This document shows, one piece after another, positions 42,663-50,311 of a stretch of DNA of 64,000 nt; within the stretch, counting starts at the first letter, position 1; the number at the start of each line of letters is the position of its first letter. The notes beneath the pieces were generated by a model that saw nothing but the letters and a program-made list of their open reading frames with translations, had not been told where the DNA came from and searched no databases. The position numbers and the translations under genes were made by a program. Source of the stretch: Myxococcales bacterium (GTDB lineage: Bacteria; Myxococcota_A; UBA9160; UBA4427); contig JADFNE010000017.1 of NCBI GenBank assembly GCA_022563535.1, positions 1-64,000 of the forward strand. The letters run 5' to 3'.

Positions 42663-43457
42663 CTAGCGACAAAATCCGCGACCACTGGTTTCAAGAAAAC
42701 TCACCAGGCGTTCTACGTCCGGTACTTCCTTGAGTTCCTCGCGCACGCTCTTGAGAGCCTGAGTGAGACTCAACTGCGATTGAAAAAGAATGGTATAGGC
42801 ACGCTTGATCTGCTGCTGTCTTTCACGCGAGACGCCGCGTCGCTTGAGCCCGACATAGTTGACGCCGATCCAATGAGCCCGATCCCCAGCCACGATCGAA
42901 AACGGCGATGCATCGAGTGAGAGCTTCGTGTTGGAGGCGGTCATCACCGATTCGCCCACGCGCGAGTACTGGTGCACCCCGGTATAGGCTCCGAGCACCG
43001 CGTAGTCGTCGACACTGACATGACCCGCGAGCCCGGAAAAACTCGCCACGACGCAATGGGATCCCACGCGACAGTCGTGCGCAATGTGCGCGGAGTTCAT
43101 GATCAGGTTGTCATCGCCAATGCGCGTACAACCTCCCCCGGCCTCTGTGCCTACGTGAATGGTCACGTGTTCACGGATGACATTGTCTTCGCCGATCTCG
43201 AGACTCGTCGTCTCGCCGGCGAAGTCATGGTCCTGGGGCGGCCCGCCGAGACAGGCGAATGGATGCACCTCGCTGCGCGCTCCAATGCGGGTACGTCCCA
43301 GAATCGCGACGTGCGGGCCGATCCTGACGCCTTCAGCCAATTCGACCTCGGGACCGATCGTCGCCAGCGGACCGACCTCGACGCCGTCGGCGAGGTTTGC
43401 ACCCGGCTCCACGACTGCGCTGGGATGAATTCGAGCCCCGGAACCGATACGAGACAT
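42663..43457 (-). CDS. lpxA: UDP-N-acetylglucosamine acyltransferase
   Basis: 264 residues. Left-handed beta-helix hexapeptide repeats fill the first 190 residues (IHPSAVVEPGANL, IGPHVAILGRTRIG). The catalytic His is in MNSAHIAHDCRVG (about residue 124). A C-terminal helical domain completes the trimeric enzyme. It begins lipid A synthesis by acylating UDP-GlcNAc at the 3-OH (or 3-amino if the adjacent oxidoreductase is a GnnA). It starts seven bases after skp. lpxD and fabZ, usually between skp and lpxA, are absent. Confidence 0.95.
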   Translation of the reverse strand: MSRIGSGARIHPSAVVEPGANLADGVEVGPLATIGPEVELAEGVRIGPHVAILGRTRIGARSEVHPFACLGGPPQDHDFAGETTSLEIGEDNVIREHVTIHVGTEAGGGCTRIGDDNLIMNSAHIAHDCRVGSHCVVASFSGLAGHVSVDDYAVLGAYTGVHQYSRVGESVMTASNTKLSLDASPFSIVAGDRAHWIGVNYVGLKRRGVSRERQQQIKRAYTILFQSQLSLTQALKSVREELKEVPDVERLVSFLETSGRGFCR

Positions 43458-43464
43458 AACGGGC

Positions 43465-43995
43465 TCAGCCCTGTTCGTTGAACTTCTCGATCACCTGGTC
43501 CGTAATATCGAGTGCCTCTCGGGTGTACACGAGGCCAGGCGTGTTGCGCATCATGATGAAAGAAAAACCATCTTCGCGGCCCATAGTCTCGACGATCCCG
43601 ACCAGCTTCGTGCGCAGCGGGCCGACCAGGCGCTCACGTGCGACTTCGAGCTTTCCCTGTAGCTGCTGCTGCTTGTGTTCGATTTCCTGGCGCAACTCCT
43701 GAAGGTCGAGCTGCTTTTGAAAGCGTGCATCGTCGGAGAGCACAAACTGCTTTGCATCGAAATCCTTGGCCATCGTCTGGTAGCGCTCGATGAGAGGCTG
43801 GAGGGATTGCTCCGCTTCGCGCTTCTTGCGTTCGAGTTCGTCGCGAGCGGCCTTGCCTTCGGTTGTAGATGACACAGCCTGGTCGAGGTCGACGATGCCG
43901 ATCTTGGTCGTTTGTGTTGAAGCACCCAGGCCCCAGCCGAGCAACAGCACGGCGGTGACAACAACTGTCAACTTCCTCGAGGTCAAATCGCGCAT
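43465..43995 (-). CDS. skp: OmpH/Skp-family periplasmic chaperone
   Basis: 176 residues: signal peptide (about 8-28), short beta strand (TKIGIVDLDQAVSSTTEG), a long coiled coil (ARDELERKKREAEQSL through LQELRQEIEHKQQQLQ), and a C-terminal strand part (FSFIMMRNTPGLVYTREALDIT). This is the Skp/OmpH jellyfish fold that holds unfolded outer-membrane proteins. The ATG at 43995 is favoured, with GGAG nine bases upstream; a TTG at 44010 is in frame. It follows bamA with a 121-base gap, the usual order. Confidence 0.9.
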   Translation of the reverse strand: MRDLTSRKLTVVVTAVLLLGWGLGASTQTTKIGIVDLDQAVSSTTEGKAARDELERKKREAEQSLQPLIERYQTMAKDFDAKQFVLSDDARFQKQLDLQELRQEIEHKQQQLQGKLEVARERLVGPLRTKLVGIVETMGREDGFSFIMMRNTPGLVYTREALDITDQVIEKFNEQG

Positions 43996-44116
43996 TTTAC
44001 GTTTCTCCAATTTCCCACCTCGACGCGCATCAGCTCACTGACCAGGAGCTGTTGGGACGGGTGATGTTCGATGGGTGGTCTATCCGGTGTTCTCGATGTG
44101 CTGGTTGTCCTTCAAC

Positions 44117-47100
44117 TCATTGCACGAACCCGCCAATGGAAAACTCGAACACTGGGCTCTTCTCGAAGGAAAGCGGGTTGATGGGAAATCCCAAGACGAT
44201 TTGCAGCGGTCCGAAGGGAGAGAACCATAACAGTCCACCACCGTAAGCGTAGCGCCACTCCGTGACATCGAACAGGCTTTCGCCTTCTCCGAAGGCATTC
44301 CCGCCGTCTACGAACAGAACGGCCTGCAATCCGACTTCTTCCGAGATCGGGAGGCGATATTCCAGGTTCACCAGCGCAAACTTGTTGCCGCCAATCACGT
44401 CGGTCTCGTCGAGGTCCTCGAAGTCTTTGATTTTCTTGTCATCGATATCGTTGCACTTTCCATCTTTGTCGCCCTGCGTATTGATCGGAGACAACAGGTC
44501 ATCCCGGCAAATTGCAACCCCATTCTCGAGTAACCTTCCGACCGGGACAAAGATCTGACCATCTCCGGGGGCTGCGAAGGGATCAAAATGGCGATAGAGG
44601 ACCGCTCGGCGGGGCCCGAGCGACCGCGCCTTGTAGCCGCGCAGCTGATATGCGCCGATCCCGCCGAGGAAGTAGCGCTCGGTGAGTGGCAGGGTGATGT
44701 TCGTGTCGATCTCGTCGAGCGGAGCCGCATTGTCGCATGCGCCATCGTCACAGATCGTCGGACCGTCGATGCCCTGAAAACTGTAATCGCTCAACGTGTT
44801 GAAGCTGTAGGCATATCCAATTCGCCCGCTGAAAACGAAGGAAGAGCGATCGAACAACCAGCCGGGGGCACCGAAATACCGACTGTAGTTCCCTTCGACC
44901 CGTACGAATCGGGCGAAACCGCCGAGCCCCGATACGTCCACGCTCGCGCCGTAGGTCGTGCCAGCCGTCGGAGAGAATCGATCGTTGCGAGTGTCACTGC
45001 GGGCCGAGAGCCCAAGCGTGCTGTTGCTCTCGTTGCCCTGCAGGATCTGCCTGAACACCGGAGCGGAAGCGTTGATTCCTCCGTCGTTTCGTTCAACCTT
45101 GCGCTGGGAATAGCTGTAGCGGATAAGTCCGCTCGCCGTGTTGTCTTCGCGTAGGGCGTGCCCCAGGCTCAAACTGAAACCGCGTTGTCGCTGCTTGAAG
45201 TTGTCGAAGTTGATCCGGCTCAAAAACAGAGAGCCACCGGCACTGAAATCACTTCCCAGGAAGTGAGGGTCGCGCAGCGAGATGTTGTAGCGACTGGTTC
45301 GCCCACCGAGATCGATCTGGAAATTCACCCCGTAGCCGCGCCCAAAGAGATTGGCCTGACTGAGCGATGCCGTAAAAACCAAGTTGTCTTGAGAAGAGTA
45401 GCCGGCACCAAAGCTGAAAGAACCCGTCGGACGCTCGGCGACAGTGATATCCAAGTCGAGTTTCGCAGGATCATCTGTGGGTTTGGGTTCAAAACTGACA
45501 TCTTCGAAGAAATTCAGGCGTTTGACCTTCAAATTGCTGATCTGCAGGTCGCGAGCCGAGTAAAGCTGCCCCTCGACCAGCTTCAGTTCTCGCCGGATGA
45601 CGGGATCGACCGTGATCGTGTTGCCGAATAGATTGATGTGCCGGATGAAGTACAGGGGGCCTTTCTTTACCTGGAACTCGACGTGGATCTTCCGCGTTTC
45701 TGTGTCGAGCCGAGTCCCAGGTCTCACACTCGCGAAATAAAAACCCCGGTCGGTGTAGTGTCGCTCCAGAATCTCGACGTCTTCGGTCAGGTGCGATCGG
45801 TTGAAGATCTCCCCAGTCTCGAGCTTCAGCTTATCCAGCAGCGCTTCAAAATCCATCGATTCGTCGCCGGTGATATTGATCTCACCGACGCTGAACTGCG
45901 GTCCCTCGCGGATCGCCACGCGAATCGCCAGCCCATCTTCGGAGACGTCGATCTCGGGTTCAGCGAGTTCCACCTGGAGGTAACCGATATCGCTGTACTT
46001 CTTTTCGATGGCGCGCAGATCGCGCATGAACACCTGTTCCGCGTAGGTTCCCGACTTATCGAACCAACTCGTCAGAAGTGACCACGGCCGCCACAACTTG
46101 GTGACGAAGTCCCCGCGAAGTTCACGATCGCTAAAGGCATGATTGCCCTCGAACTCCACCTTCTTGAGCCGCTGTTTTTCGTTTTCCTCGACCTCGAAGT
46201 GCACGGTGACCGAGCCCTCGGTGATATTTTCGATCTCGAAACCCGCTTGGGCCAGGTAGTAACCTTGGGCGCGATAGAGCGCTTTGATCCGCTCGGTATT
46301 CGCCTTGAGCAGAGAGCGATCGAGAGTGGACCCCGTGGTGAGGGTGAGAATCTCCTTGATGTCGTCGCCGTCGATCTTGTCATTGCCCGAAATCGAAATC
46401 TGACGCACGACGGGGTTCTCGACAACCTCGAAGATCAAGACCTTGCCCCGCTCGCCGTCGTCTACGAACGCCTTCACGTCACCAAAGAAGCCCAGCTCGA
46501 ATACGGAGCGGATATCTCGGGCGACATCGTCCTCGTTCAGCGGCGCATCGACTTGCGAAGTGATGCGACTCAAGATCGTGTCGGCTTCAATGCGACGATG
46601 GCCACGAATCACGATCGCCCCAATATTTGCTCCCTCTCGTTCTCTCGCCGCCGAACCGAAGAGGCGCTCGCTGCGGATGACCCGGTAGACCAGCTCGATC
46701 CCTTCGGGGCCGCGCTCGACATCGAGCTTGACCCGCGCCACACCAGGATGTGCCTCGATTTTGGCGCGATCCTGGCGCACTTCCGCGGGTTCGTAGATTG
46801 TGCCCGCGGTGTATTCGAGCGTCGCGCGAAGCTCGCCCTCGATTTCACCCGCGGCCTCGAAGGTCACGGCGGTGATCATGTCGGGGTCGGTCCCCGAAAG
46901 TGAAGCGACGCAGCGGTCCGCCAACTCGCTGAGTCGACCGATCAGGTCTTCTTCGCTGGGTGCGATGATCGCGATCGATTGACTGCGACCGGTCCCGACC
47001 GGTGTCAAGCGGATGTCGAGGCTAAAACGTCCTGCGAGTTCGGTGATGCTGCCCGAGATGACAACCCGCACCCCCAGGCGCTCCGCCAGCTTTCGCAGCT

Positions 47101-47428
47101 CTTCCTCGGAGAACTCCGCCCGGGTCGATCCCCCCAGAGCCTCACTTACGACGTGGCTTTCCAATACGTCGACCTTGCCGGTCGACTCGAGTCGGGTGGC
47201 GAGCAGATCCGAGAGCGATTCAGTCAGATAGCCGAGCGGCCGCGCGCTGTGAATACGAAAGGGAAGTACCGCGATCGGGATCCTGGCGGCTTCGCCTTCC
47301 TGTGAGCCGGTGGCTGGCGCGGGATTGTCCGACGCCCCATGCTCAGCCGCAGAAGGCGGCACGAACGCGAGCGCGATCCAAACCGAAAGCAAGAGGACAC
47401 TCGCCGCAAAGCGACCGGGGACGTGCAA
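44117..47428 (-). CDS. bamA: BamA outer-membrane assembly protein with extra N-terminal FlgO/TolB-like domain
   Basis: 1,103 residues against about 800 for a usual BamA. A signal peptide (about 5-28) is followed at about 49-178 by a FlgO/TolB/CsgG-like domain (IPIAVLPFRI, LATRLESTGKVDVLES, LAERLGVRVVISGSIT). Then come about six POTRA-like repeats: a diverged one (about 186-252) and five clear ones (for example AIVIRGHRRIEADTILSRI, FIRHINLFGNTIT). A 16-strand barrel follows (SFGAGYSSQDN, RDPHFLGSDF, the LRGY lock loop). It inserts barrel proteins into the outer membrane. The TTG at 47428 has GGAG seven bases upstream and directly precedes the signal peptide. The protein ends GGFVQ, without a terminal aromatic residue. 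Confidence 0.92.
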   Translation of the reverse strand: MHVPGRFAASVLLLSVWIALAFVPPSAAEHGASDNPAPATGSQEGEAARIPIAVLPFRIHSARPLGYLTESLSDLLATRLESTGKVDVLESHVVSEALGGSTRAEFSEEELRKLAERLGVRVVISGSITELAGRFSLDIRLTPVGTGRSQSIAIIAPSEEDLIGRLSELADRCVASLSGTDPDMITAVTFEAAGEIEGELRATLEYTAGTIYEPAEVRQDRAKIEAHPGVARVKLDVERGPEGIELVYRVIRSERLFGSAAREREGANIGAIVIRGHRRIEADTILSRITSQVDAPLNEDDVARDIRSVFELGFFGDVKAFVDDGERGKVLIFEVVENPVVRQISISGNDKIDGDDIKEILTLTTGSTLDRSLLKANTERIKALYRAQGYYLAQAGFEIENITEGSVTVHFEVEENEKQRLKKVEFEGNHAFSDRELRGDFVTKLWRPWSLLTSWFDKSGTYAEQVFMRDLRAIEKKYSDIGYLQVELAEPEIDVSEDGLAIRVAIREGPQFSVGEINITGDESMDFEALLDKLKLETGEIFNRSHLTEDVEILERHYTDRGFYFASVRPGTRLDTETRKIHVEFQVKKGPLYFIRHINLFGNTITVDPVIRRELKLVEGQLYSARDLQISNLKVKRLNFFEDVSFEPKPTDDPAKLDLDITVAERPTGSFSFGAGYSSQDNLVFTASLSQANLFGRGYGVNFQIDLGGRTSRYNISLRDPHFLGSDFSAGGSLFLSRINFDNFKQRQRGFSLSLGHALREDNTASGLIRYSYSQRKVERNDGGINASAPVFRQILQGNESNSTLGLSARSDTRNDRFSPTAGTTYGASVDVSGLGGFARFVRVEGNYSRYFGAPGWLFDRSSFVFSGRIGYAYSFNTLSDYSFQGIDGPTICDDGACDNAAPLDEIDTNITLPLTERYFLGGIGAYQLRGYKARSLGPRRAVLYRHFDPFAAPGDGQIFVPVGRLLENGVAICRDDLLSPINTQGDKDGKCNDIDDKKIKDFEDLDETDVIGGNKFALVNLEYRLPISEEVGLQAVLFVDGGNAFGEGESLFDVTEWRYAYGGGLLWFSPFGPLQIVLGFPINPLSFEKSPVFEFSIGGFVQ

Positions 47429-47604: not shown

Positions 47605-48336
47605 TCATGCGCGTAGAGCCCAGCCACCGGTGCCATCGACGAATCGACCATTCTCCAGTACCAGGATTTTCCCGAGTTTCTCCGCCAACCGTTCGTTGTG
47701 AGTCACGACGACCAGGGTCGTCCCCCGGGTCCGGTTGATTTCGAAAAGAAGATCGGAGATCTGTTCGCCAATGGCTGGATCGAGATTGCCGGTGGGTTCG
47801 TCGGCGAGGATCAGCGGCGGATCCAGAACCAGTGCCCTCGCCACCGCGACCCGTTGGCGCTCGCCGCCGGAGAGTTTTCCAACCCGATAATCGAGCCGGT
47901 GGCTGAGACCAACCTCAGAGAGAATCCGATCCGCGCGTTCGCGCATCTCGTCGCGCTCGAGGCGTCGGATCAAGCCCGGGATCATGACGTTCTCGATGGC
48001 GCTGAACTCGGGCAATAGATGATGAAATTGAAAAACGAAACCGAGAAACTCGTTGCGCACCTGGGCCAGGCCCGAATTGTCTTTGGCGAACACGTCCTCG
48101 CCGCGAAAGTAGACGTTGCCCCTCGTGGGGTGGTCGAGGGTGCCGAGAATGTGAAGAAAGGTCGACTTGCCGACGCCCGACTGCCCCACCACGGCAATTC
48201 GTTCGCCGGCTTCGATTTCGAAGTCCAGATCGTCCAGCACCGTGAGCGTGCCGTCGCCGGTCTGGAAGGTCTTCGTCAGCCCTTCGATCCGCACCAGCGG
48301 CTCGCTGGCCGGGGCGACCTCTGGTTTCTCATTCAT
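47605..48336 (-). CDS. lolD: Lipoprotein-release ABC transporter ATPase
   Basis: 243 residues: Walker A VVGQSGVGKST, Q-loop GFVFQFHHLLPEF, signature LSGGERQRVAVARAL, Walker B LILADEPTGNLD, and the His switch VVVTHNERLA. This is a LolD-type ATPase (MacB/LolD family) that powers extraction of outer-membrane lipoproteins. The ATG at 48336 lies inside the permease gene (eight-base overlap), so the two are coupled. A 176-base gap with no gene separates it from bamA. Confidence 0.93.
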   Translation of the reverse strand: MNEKPEVAPASEPLVRIEGLTKTFQTGDGTLTVLDDLDFEIEAGERIAVVGQSGVGKSTFLHILGTLDHPTRGNVYFRGEDVFAKDNSGLAQVRNEFLGFVFQFHHLLPEFSAIENVMIPGLIRRLERDEMRERADRILSEVGLSHRLDYRVGKLSGGERQRVAVARALVLDPPLILADEPTGNLDPAIGEQISDLLFEINRTRGTTLVVVTHNERLAEKLGKILVLENGRFVDGTGGWALRA

Positions 48337-50311
48337 AACGCAGGGCCTCGGCGGGATCGAGTCGCGCGCCCTGACGACTCGGCAACAGCGTGGCCCCAAG
48401 CGAAAGCACCATGGCGATTGTCGCCATCAGCCCCACCTGCATGGGGTCGACGCTCGAAGGCAGACTTGAAAACTGGTAAATGCTCGCCGGCAGCGTGTCG
48501 ATCCCAGTGAGATTCTCGATCGTTTGCTGGAACCACTGCAACTGCTGGGTTACTGCGACACCACCGATCACTCCAATGCTTGTCCCCATCAATCCGATCA
48601 ATGTTCCTTCGATCGCAAAGATGCGCTCGATCGCTGCATCCTCTGCACCCATGGCCTTGAGGATCGCGATGTCGCTCGACTTCTCCATGATCATCATGAT
48701 CAGGGTGGCGACAATCAAGAATGCGGCGACGACCAGAATCATCGAGAGCAACAAGAACATCATCACCCGTTCGCTCTTGAGCGCCTGAAAGAAAGCGGGA
48801 AAGAACTCCTTCCAGTCCCGGGTGAAGTAGGGGTACCCCAGGGTCTGGCGCACCAGAGCTCCCACCCGACGAGAGCGGTAGAAGTCCGTGGTCCGCGCCT
48901 CGATGCCGTCGATCACGTCACCCTCCCGACGAAAATCCTGAGCGGCCGGAAGGGTTGTATACGTGAAAACCTCGTCGTACTGAAAGAAGCTCGATTGAAA
49001 GATCCCCGCCACGCGAAACCGCTTGAGCCGCGGCGCGGGACCCAGTGGAGTCTGGGGTCCTCCGACCGGGGAGATCAGAATCAAATCGTCTCCGATCTGA
49101 CTTCCGGAGGCGATGGCCAACTGATTACCGATGATGATCCCGGGATCGCCACGGCCGACGTCCTTTCCCTCGCTGGACGGCGACAAATCGTCGAGCGAGC
49201 CAGCGATGATGTCCTGCCGAAGATCAGTCACGTCGGCGACAGTGTCCGGGTCGATGCCCCGCAACCGCACGCTGAAGATGCCGCCGTCCTCCCCTCGCAC
49301 CATCCCATGGGCATCGAGGTAGGGAGAGGCACCGGTGACACCGGGAACACCGCGCACGACCTCGAGAACATCAGCGTAGTTGCCAAACGATCCAGTGCCG
49401 CTGTGCACGGTAAAGTGGGCGCGATTGCCGAGTATCTCGTCCCGCCAGGTCGCTTCGAATCCATTCATCACCGAGAGCACGACAATGATGAGGCAGACGC
49501 CGGCGGCGATTCCTCCCACGCAAATTCCGCTGATTGCCGAGATGAACACCTGTCGTCGCTTCGCGACCAGATAGCGCAGCGCGATGAACCACTCGACCGA
49601 ACGCCGCATCTCGACCAATCCCGCGGCCGCCAGGGGCAGGAGCCCGAGCAACACGACCCCTGCAAAAAAGGCCACCAGCACGGTTCCACCCGCGGCAAAG
49701 TTTTGCTGGATCTCGAGAGGCATGAAGCTATTGGCGAAGCCGATGGCCCAGGCTGCGGCGAACCAACGCAATACGTCTTCAAATTCGCCGCGACTCGACT
49801 GTCCCCGGGCGCGTCGCCGGCGGGCCAACCACAGTGTGCCGACAAACGATACAATCACCGGTGCCACCAGCCAGGCGATGGGAACCGCGATCGAGAGCCA
49901 GGTGGAGAGGCCAAAGCTCGCGAGCGCGAGCACCCAGAGTCCGAGACTACGGCCTTCGACCCGGCCCAAAACAAAACGGGTGGCGAGCACCGCCACCAGG
50001 CTCAGGCCCACCATCCGGACAGACGAATTCGCATAGGCCGGCCACCACTCCGCCCATGGACGAGCACTTATTTCCGGCTGGGTGAGTTGGAGCACGAACA
50101 GACCCAAGACCCCACTCACGACCAGACAAGAGAACAGCATCAAGCCGGTTCGGGACGACACCCGGGCAAACCGTTCCAGGACCACGATGGCCGAGCCGAC
50201 GTACAGCAAGGACAACAGGATGATCCCGAGGATGAGCGCCACGATGAACGCCAGCGTGGCCGCTGCGCCAGCCGCCAGCACGGACGCAGCGATCCCAGAA
50301 GTGAATTCCAT
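48329..50311 (-). CDS. LolC/E-family permease with long N-terminal membrane extension
   Basis: 660 residues, against about 400-415 for a usual LolC or LolE. The permease core starts near residue 239 (SVEWFIALRYLVAKRRQVFIS), has the periplasmic domain (about 290-510), and ends with the three conserved spans (SDIAILKAMGAEDAAIERIF, PSRQGARLDPAEALRYE). The first 238 residues hold about six or seven additional hydrophobic spans of unrecognised family. Only one permease gene accompanies lolD, so it may act as a homodimer (LolF-like). GGAAG lies upstream of the ATG at 50311. Confidence 0.88.
   Translation of the reverse strand: MEFTSGIAASVLAAGAAATLAFIVALILGIILLSLLYVGSAIVVLERFARVSSRTGLMLFSCLVVSGVLGLFVLQLTQPEISARPWAEWWPAYANSSVRMVGLSLVAVLATRFVLGRVEGRSLGLWVLALASFGLSTWLSIAVPIAWLVAPVIVSFVGTLWLARRRRARGQSSRGEFEDVLRWFAAAWAIGFANSFMPLEIQQNFAAGGTVLVAFFAGVVLLGLLPLAAAGLVEMRRSVEWFIALRYLVAKRRQVFISAISGICVGGIAAGVCLIIVVLSVMNGFEATWRDEILGNRAHFTVHSGTGSFGNYADVLEVVRGVPGVTGASPYLDAHGMVRGEDGGIFSVRLRGIDPDTVADVTDLRQDIIAGSLDDLSPSSEGKDVGRGDPGIIIGNQLAIASGSQIGDDLILISPVGGPQTPLGPAPRLKRFRVAGIFQSSFFQYDEVFTYTTLPAAQDFRREGDVIDGIEARTTDFYRSRRVGALVRQTLGYPYFTRDWKEFFPAFFQALKSERVMMFLLLSMILVVAAFLIVATLIMMIMEKSSDIAILKAMGAEDAAIERIFAIEGTLIGLMGTSIGVIGGVAVTQQLQWFQQTIENLTGIDTLPASIYQFSSLPSSVDPMQVGLMATIAMVLSLGATLLPSRQGARLDPAEALRYE

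Follow-up and report, generated by a model that had tools for sequence, protein, structure and literature searches.

The BAM complex is essential in diderm bacteria, and its composition is poorly known outside the alpha-, beta- and gamma-proteobacteria. Its canonical BamA subunit (TIGR03303; exemplified by E. coli) consists of five POTRA domains and a beta-barrel. BamAs with anything from one to seven POTRAs are already known, including six in Thermus and seven in Myxococcus xanthus (PMC6604945). For delta-proteobacteria, the HMM-based work of Anwari et al. (2012) found BamB to be rare and BamC absent, saw nothing to indicate that BamB, BamC or BamE belong to the complex, and reported a BAM made of BamA and BamD with predicted unknown substitute proteins (PMC3359395). 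Several lineages have their own BAM additions, such as partners of the BamF, RmpM or Pal type (PMC3359395, PMC6604945), and among the ten Omp85 subfamilies that Heinz and Lithgow (2014) distinguished are several, one of them a WD40 fusion, in which the Omp85 barrel is joined to an unusual N-terminal domain (PMC4104836).

The DNA analysed here, hereafter the window, is a stretch of 64,000 nucleotides from a Myxococcales bacterium (Myxococcota_A; UBA9160; UBA4427; assembly GCA_022563535.1, contig JADFNE010000017.1). It contains a BamA gene with an architecture that departs from all of these, within the following set of features:

42663..43457, minus strand: LpxA (Hexapep and Acetyltransf_11)
43465..44010, minus strand: Skp/OmpH periplasmic chaperone, directly downstream of bamA (PF03938, E 2e-26)
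44117..47428, minus strand: BamA precursor, 1103 aa from a TTG start (open reading frame and TIGR03303), the only canonical BamA of the genome
44129..45352, minus strand: Omp85 beta-barrel, residues 693-1100 (PF01103, E 4e-49)
45434..45649, minus strand: POTRA5, residues 594-665 (Pfam, AF2)
45662..45892, minus strand: POTRA4, residues 513-589 (Pfam, AF2)
45908..46168, minus strand: POTRA3, residues 421-507 (Pfam, AF2)
46187..46411, minus strand: POTRA2, residues 340-414 (Pfam, AF2)
46418..46627, minus strand: canonical POTRA1, residues 268-337 (Pfam, TIGR03303, AF2)
46673..46879, minus strand: extra POTRA ("POTRA0"), residues 184-252 (beta-alpha-alpha-beta-beta in AF2; hhalign)
46856..47293, minus strand: TolB_N/LpoB/FlgT/CsgG-fold domain, residues 46-191, confident core about 49-178 (profile E 2e-54; Pfam; AF2; Foldseek)
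47345..47428, minus strand: signal peptide, residues 1-28, LHVPGRFAASVLLLSVWIALAFVPPSAA (reading of the translation; putative cleavage site)
47605..48399, minus strand: LolD-like ABC ATPase, directly upstream of bamA (open reading frame and Pfam)
48329..50311, minus strand: LolC/E-type permease, upstream of bamA (open reading frame; FtsX and MacB_PCD)

The TTG start is preceded by TTTTGGAGAAAACAG, and an additional in-frame ATG lies at 47608. TIGR03303, the BamA equivalog model, covers residues 269-1099 with 590.6 bits (cut-off 297.15), and Pfam recognizes POTRAs (PF07244) in five stretches and the barrel as PF01103. We found no second canonical BamA in the genome, where the remaining Omp85 matches are short, weak and partial. 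This open reading frame is the principal BamA of the genome, sited in a lol/skp/lpx neighbourhood that forms an operon, lolC/E-lolD-bamA-skp-lpxA, and family membership predicts that it acts in OMP insertion. It shares with canonical BamAs POTRA1 to POTRA5, the barrel, the lolD/skp/lpxA context and the single copy, but has two additions, a sixth POTRA and, at the N-terminus, a TolB_N-type domain. Downstream of LpxA follow LpxI and two open reading frames named by eye from their sequence, one oxidoreductase-like and one LpxB-like. In proteobacteria, lpxD and fabZ usually lie between skp and lpxA; here (42663-44010, minus strand) lpxA directly follows skp and both genes are absent from that spot. 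The LolC/E-type permease (48329-50311, minus strand) carries a hydrophobic, multi-helix N-terminal extension of about 250 residues, much longer than in usual LolC/E proteins, its MacB_PCD domain beginning at residue 261 of 660.

Reading of the translation revealed no lipobox cysteine in the signal peptide, and the mature protein begins with a domain of about 130 residues belonging to the TolB_N/LpoB/FlgT/CsgG fold. The TolB_N profile (PF04052) scored 26.9 bits on the isolated domain, over its cut-off of 22.4, and 21.8 bits, slightly below that Pfam cut-off, on the whole protein. It matched 48 of 69 homologous domains at E<=0.1, and fewer of them matched FlgT_M, LpoB, FlgO or CsgG; on the window's own domain the CsgG profile reached 17.1 bits (below the 20.8 cut-off) and FlgO was not among the Pfam matches. 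Phmmer and hmmsearch comparisons of the N-terminal region with PDB sequences returned chance matches only, so that a comparison of folds was required. With an AlphaFold2 (AF2) model of the domain (pLDDT 87.6, 69-row alignment), Foldseek placed TolB (4pwz; E 8e-8, TMq 0.67) at the top of the PDB, followed by GNA1162, FlgT, PelC and LpoB, with CsgG lower. Given this ranking and that of the profiles, TolB_N/LpoB-type domain is a better name than FlgO. The first-pass annotation, which had proposed a FlgO/TolB/CsgG-type domain here and a structure prediction with a fold search to examine it, named the right fold superfamily, and the region does not consist of ordinary POTRAs only: the domain matches no POTRA (hhalign, E>0.1). 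Residues T90, S97 and D99 are invariant across the 69 domains, whose sequence core is conserved in both Myxococcota and Desulfobacterota.

This domain shares fold, sequence family and periplasmic location with the TolB N-terminal domain (PF04052) and LpoB (PF13036), but it sits on BamA and not on a propeller or a lipoprotein. Neither Pfam nor the AF2 models show a propeller in the protein, which sets it apart from WD40-Omp85, and it is not a TolB (TolB_N, then a WD40 propeller) because POTRAs and a barrel follow the domain. The WD40 fusion and its like in the scheme of Heinz and Lithgow are distinct Omp85 subfamilies with non-POTRA N-termini, whereas here the carrier of the domain is BamA itself, which retains all its POTRAs; a TolB_N-POTRA-BamA arrangement is not described for the ten subfamilies in the accessible part of that account (PMC4104836). 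Likewise, the TolB_N domain is not reported for the multi-POTRA BamAs (PMC6604945). The addition resembles BamF, RmpM or Pal in being lineage-specific (PMC3359395, PMC6604945) but differs in that it is part of the BamA chain; its candidate partner, described below, is a paralogue that would act in trans.

As for the POTRA arm, the AF2 model of the 651-residue periplasmic part (pLDDT 88.9) contains six beta-alpha-alpha-beta-beta units, although their mutual placement is unreliable at a pTM of 0.55. The diverged POTRA-like repeat that the initial reading had seen ahead of five clear ones is a genuine sixth POTRA. It is closest to POTRA1 (hhalign 98.6%, E 9e-16), and its sequence is consistent with a duplication of that domain. 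The fusions of Desulfobacterota lack the extra POTRA, and their N-terminal domain abuts POTRA1. Since counts from one to seven are on record (PMC6604945), six POTRAs are by themselves not new. The main BamA of this cell carries on its POTRA arm both the fused TolB_N/LpoB/CsgG-fold domain and a POTRA1-like sixth POTRA. A further supposed oddity, the missing terminal aromatic residue, is true of this BamA but is ordinary lineage variation: among 50 complete BamAs of the order the last residue is Phe in 23, Leu in 17, Gln in 4, Ile in 4, Arg in 1 and Asn in 1.

Among the solved relatives of the fold, TolB and LpoB are protein-binding modules and PelC and CsgG form oligomers; LpoB activates PBP1B, and TolB_N binds TolA. 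By analogy, the domain might tether BamA to the cell wall, to wall synthases or to Tol-Pal and thereby link the insertion of OMPs with growth of the wall or with division; the initial reading had proposed a tie to the peptidoglycan or inner membrane. Both TolB and LpoB are among its closest solved folds, and it lies at the membrane-distal end of a POTRA arm that the extra POTRA lengthens in this order. We nevertheless find such tethering rather unlikely, as the argument is drawn from fold similarity alone, no conserved TolA-box-like segment was recognized before the first strand of the domain, where the linker varies, and the genome has a complete TolB. TolB-like proteins of near-full length are present in this genome and in most of the order, and the presence of that complete, separate TolB led us to reject the possibility that the BamA domain stands in for TolB.

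The fusion is fixed in this order of Myxococcota, common in Desulfobacterota, and has changed state several times on the tree. Our Myxococcota sample comprised 142 genomes: 25 from the order of the window (8 families), 5 from the sister order and 112 from outside the class. The N-terminal domain and the extra POTRA occur together in 25/25 genomes of the order, a recurrence that is not due to chance; in the rest of the sample, matches to the window BamA start near residue 260, and eight BamAs from other Myxococcota families show no trace of the domain. The domain search across the phylum also gave numerous weak TolB/FlgO-like matches, which we left out of the count of fusions. In Desulfobacterota, profile analysis of 135 BamAs assigned 70 to the fused state and 63 to the unfused one and left 2 ambiguous, so that 70 of the 133 classifiable ones are fused. 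The search for the same fusion in related genomes, which the first-pass annotation had recommended, was thus productive, and we could discard both the idea that the architecture is unique to this window and the opposite one that all BamAs of the phylum carry it, given the other Myxococcota without the domain. We found no description of a TolB_N-BamA fusion in the open-access literature; because of that scope, and because such an architecture is necessarily visible in sequence databases, we consider it undescribed only as far as we have searched.

In the sister order, the domain is missing from two BamAs (L031 and L032), reduced to a decayed remnant in a third (L033, E 2e-8) and replaced by an unrecognizable stretch in a fourth (L034), a graded series of domain loss on an essential protein. 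The BamA tree places the window's class as one strongly supported group (100, starred) beside the other Myxococcota (91, unstarred) and apart from Desulfobacterota. The fused state changes at least six times on the 82-row BamA tree and eight times within Desulfobacterota, and several of these changes, for instance within the clades of L182, L184 and L185, are naturally read as probable losses. A tree of the domains groups the BamA-borne copies from the two phyla together, apart from the stand-alone copies from both (SH-aLRT 80, unstarred); one old shared fusion and exchange between the two phyla are both compatible readings.

The first interpretation of the locus also held that the domain could replace an accessory lipoprotein of the BamB/C/D type. 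This fails for BamD, since TIGR03302 detects it in 142/142 Myxococcota, this genome included, and replacement of BamD was rejected. For BamB, a propeller scaffold that binds the POTRAs of BamA, the domain could have taken over its function, the BAM of this lineage then being a machine of BamA with its domain and BamD. A search for bamB in genomes with the fusion is in keeping with this: TIGR03300 did not detect it in any of the 30 sampled genomes of the class (best match in this genome 6e-7), whereas about 106 of the 112 genomes outside the class have BamB-like matches at E<1e-20, mostly near full length. Complete BamB likewise accompanies 0/70 fused and 8/63 unfused BamAs of Desulfobacterota (p=0.002; hardly any of this contrast is phylogenetically independent), and a BamA plus BamD machine with predicted unknown substitutes is what has been reported for the delta lineage (PMC3359395). 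Yet BamB is also missing from the sister-order genomes that lack an intact domain and from most unfused Desulfobacterota, the difference fades under a looser criterion (4/70 versus 10/63, p=0.09), and the fold of the domain is not a propeller. As the class-wide absence of BamB thus includes genomes without the domain, we hold its replacement to be improbable.

The strongest clue to function comes from a second periplasmic protein, which carries this domain separately from BamA. In this Myxococcota order it consists of a signal peptide, the domain and a C-terminal coiled-coil-like segment; the copy in this genome is 208 aa long:

L158 4743-5369 (G000, contig C25), plus strand: stand-alone TolB_N-like/coiled-coil protein

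This coiled-coil paralogue was retrieved at E<1e-53 from 21/25 genomes of the order, 0/5 of the sister order and 0/112 other Myxococcota. Its Desulfobacterota counterpart, of 520-600 aa, has a signal peptide, the domain and FG-GAP repeats, which predict a beta-propeller. The full-length form occurs with 51 of 70 fused BamAs and with 8 of 63 unfused ones (p=8.5e-13), or 51/62 and 8/45 when partial matches are set aside; the exceptions are the 8 unfused genomes with a full-length paralogue and 19 fused ones without it. Because this co-occurrence is clustered on the tree, it represents few independent events: controlling for phylogeny leaves 3-6 independent pairs, which puts significance out of reach, of which on average 2.4 of 3 in Desulfobacterota and 3.2 of 4 across both phyla are concordant and 0.0 discordant.

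From this co-distribution, the best explanation, to which we assign a probability of roughly 45%, is that the BamA domain is a docking module for the stand-alone paralogue, with which it has been largely co-inherited. The protein-binding character of TolB and LpoB, the split between BamA-borne and stand-alone copies in the domain tree, and the conservation of the fusion on the sole canonical BamA also speak for it. The domain, at the membrane-distal end of BamA, would bind the separate periplasmic protein bearing the same domain, in its coiled-coil form in the Myxococcota order and its FG-GAP propeller form in Desulfobacterota, and the pair would bring to the POTRA arm, or place there, a substrate, a chaperone or some other envelope complex; the extra POTRA would lengthen that arm. 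The role of the pair would be akin to that of an accessory BAM lipoprotein elsewhere, with BamD retained; more speculatively, the coiled coil or propeller may contact a client or the Tol/peptidoglycan machinery.

The same data could instead reflect a structurally tolerated extension of the lineage that has no dedicated partner, its co-occurrence with the paralogue being due to shared ancestry. On the tree the trait forms clusters and has changed state several times, and the paralogue gene is unlinked to bamA in the loci checked. It adjoins a response regulator-GAF-histidine kinase gene in three Myxococcota loci (L158, L162 and L163) and glyoxalase/meaB-like or mutL genes in Desulfobacterota, neighbourhoods in which we found no link to BAM. 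Such passive persistence is nonetheless hard to reconcile with a domain that is conserved throughout the order, with a core maintained in both phyla (T90, S97 and D99), or with a paralogue that is absent exactly where the BamA domain has decayed, and we judge it doubtful at best.

If docking is the correct reading, a wider and more tentative possibility is an unrecognised BAM variant of the delta lineages, in which a TolB_N-type receptor on BamA would recruit a soluble paralogue as a lipoprotein-independent substitute for the enterobacterial accessory subunits. The paralogue may then be a long-missing BAM partner, and the cis-fused domain, in about half of the sampled Desulfobacterota, and this co-inherited soluble protein are two testable candidates for missing BAM roles. 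Genetic tools exist for some cultured Desulfobacterota, and the question becomes directly testable if one tractable species carries the fusion.

The domain plus FG-GAP protein is widespread in Desulfobacterota (L098 4887-6572, L104 4908-6566, L109 4875-6494, L110 4794-6500 and L102 4890-6530), with a layout like that of TolB but a different propeller. Two loci, L112 and L113, encode short Desulfobacterota proteins (220-265 aa) with the same domain and W/K-rich C-terminal motifs, PFWKVW/PFWKFW in L113 and WRLWKYIW at the end of L112.
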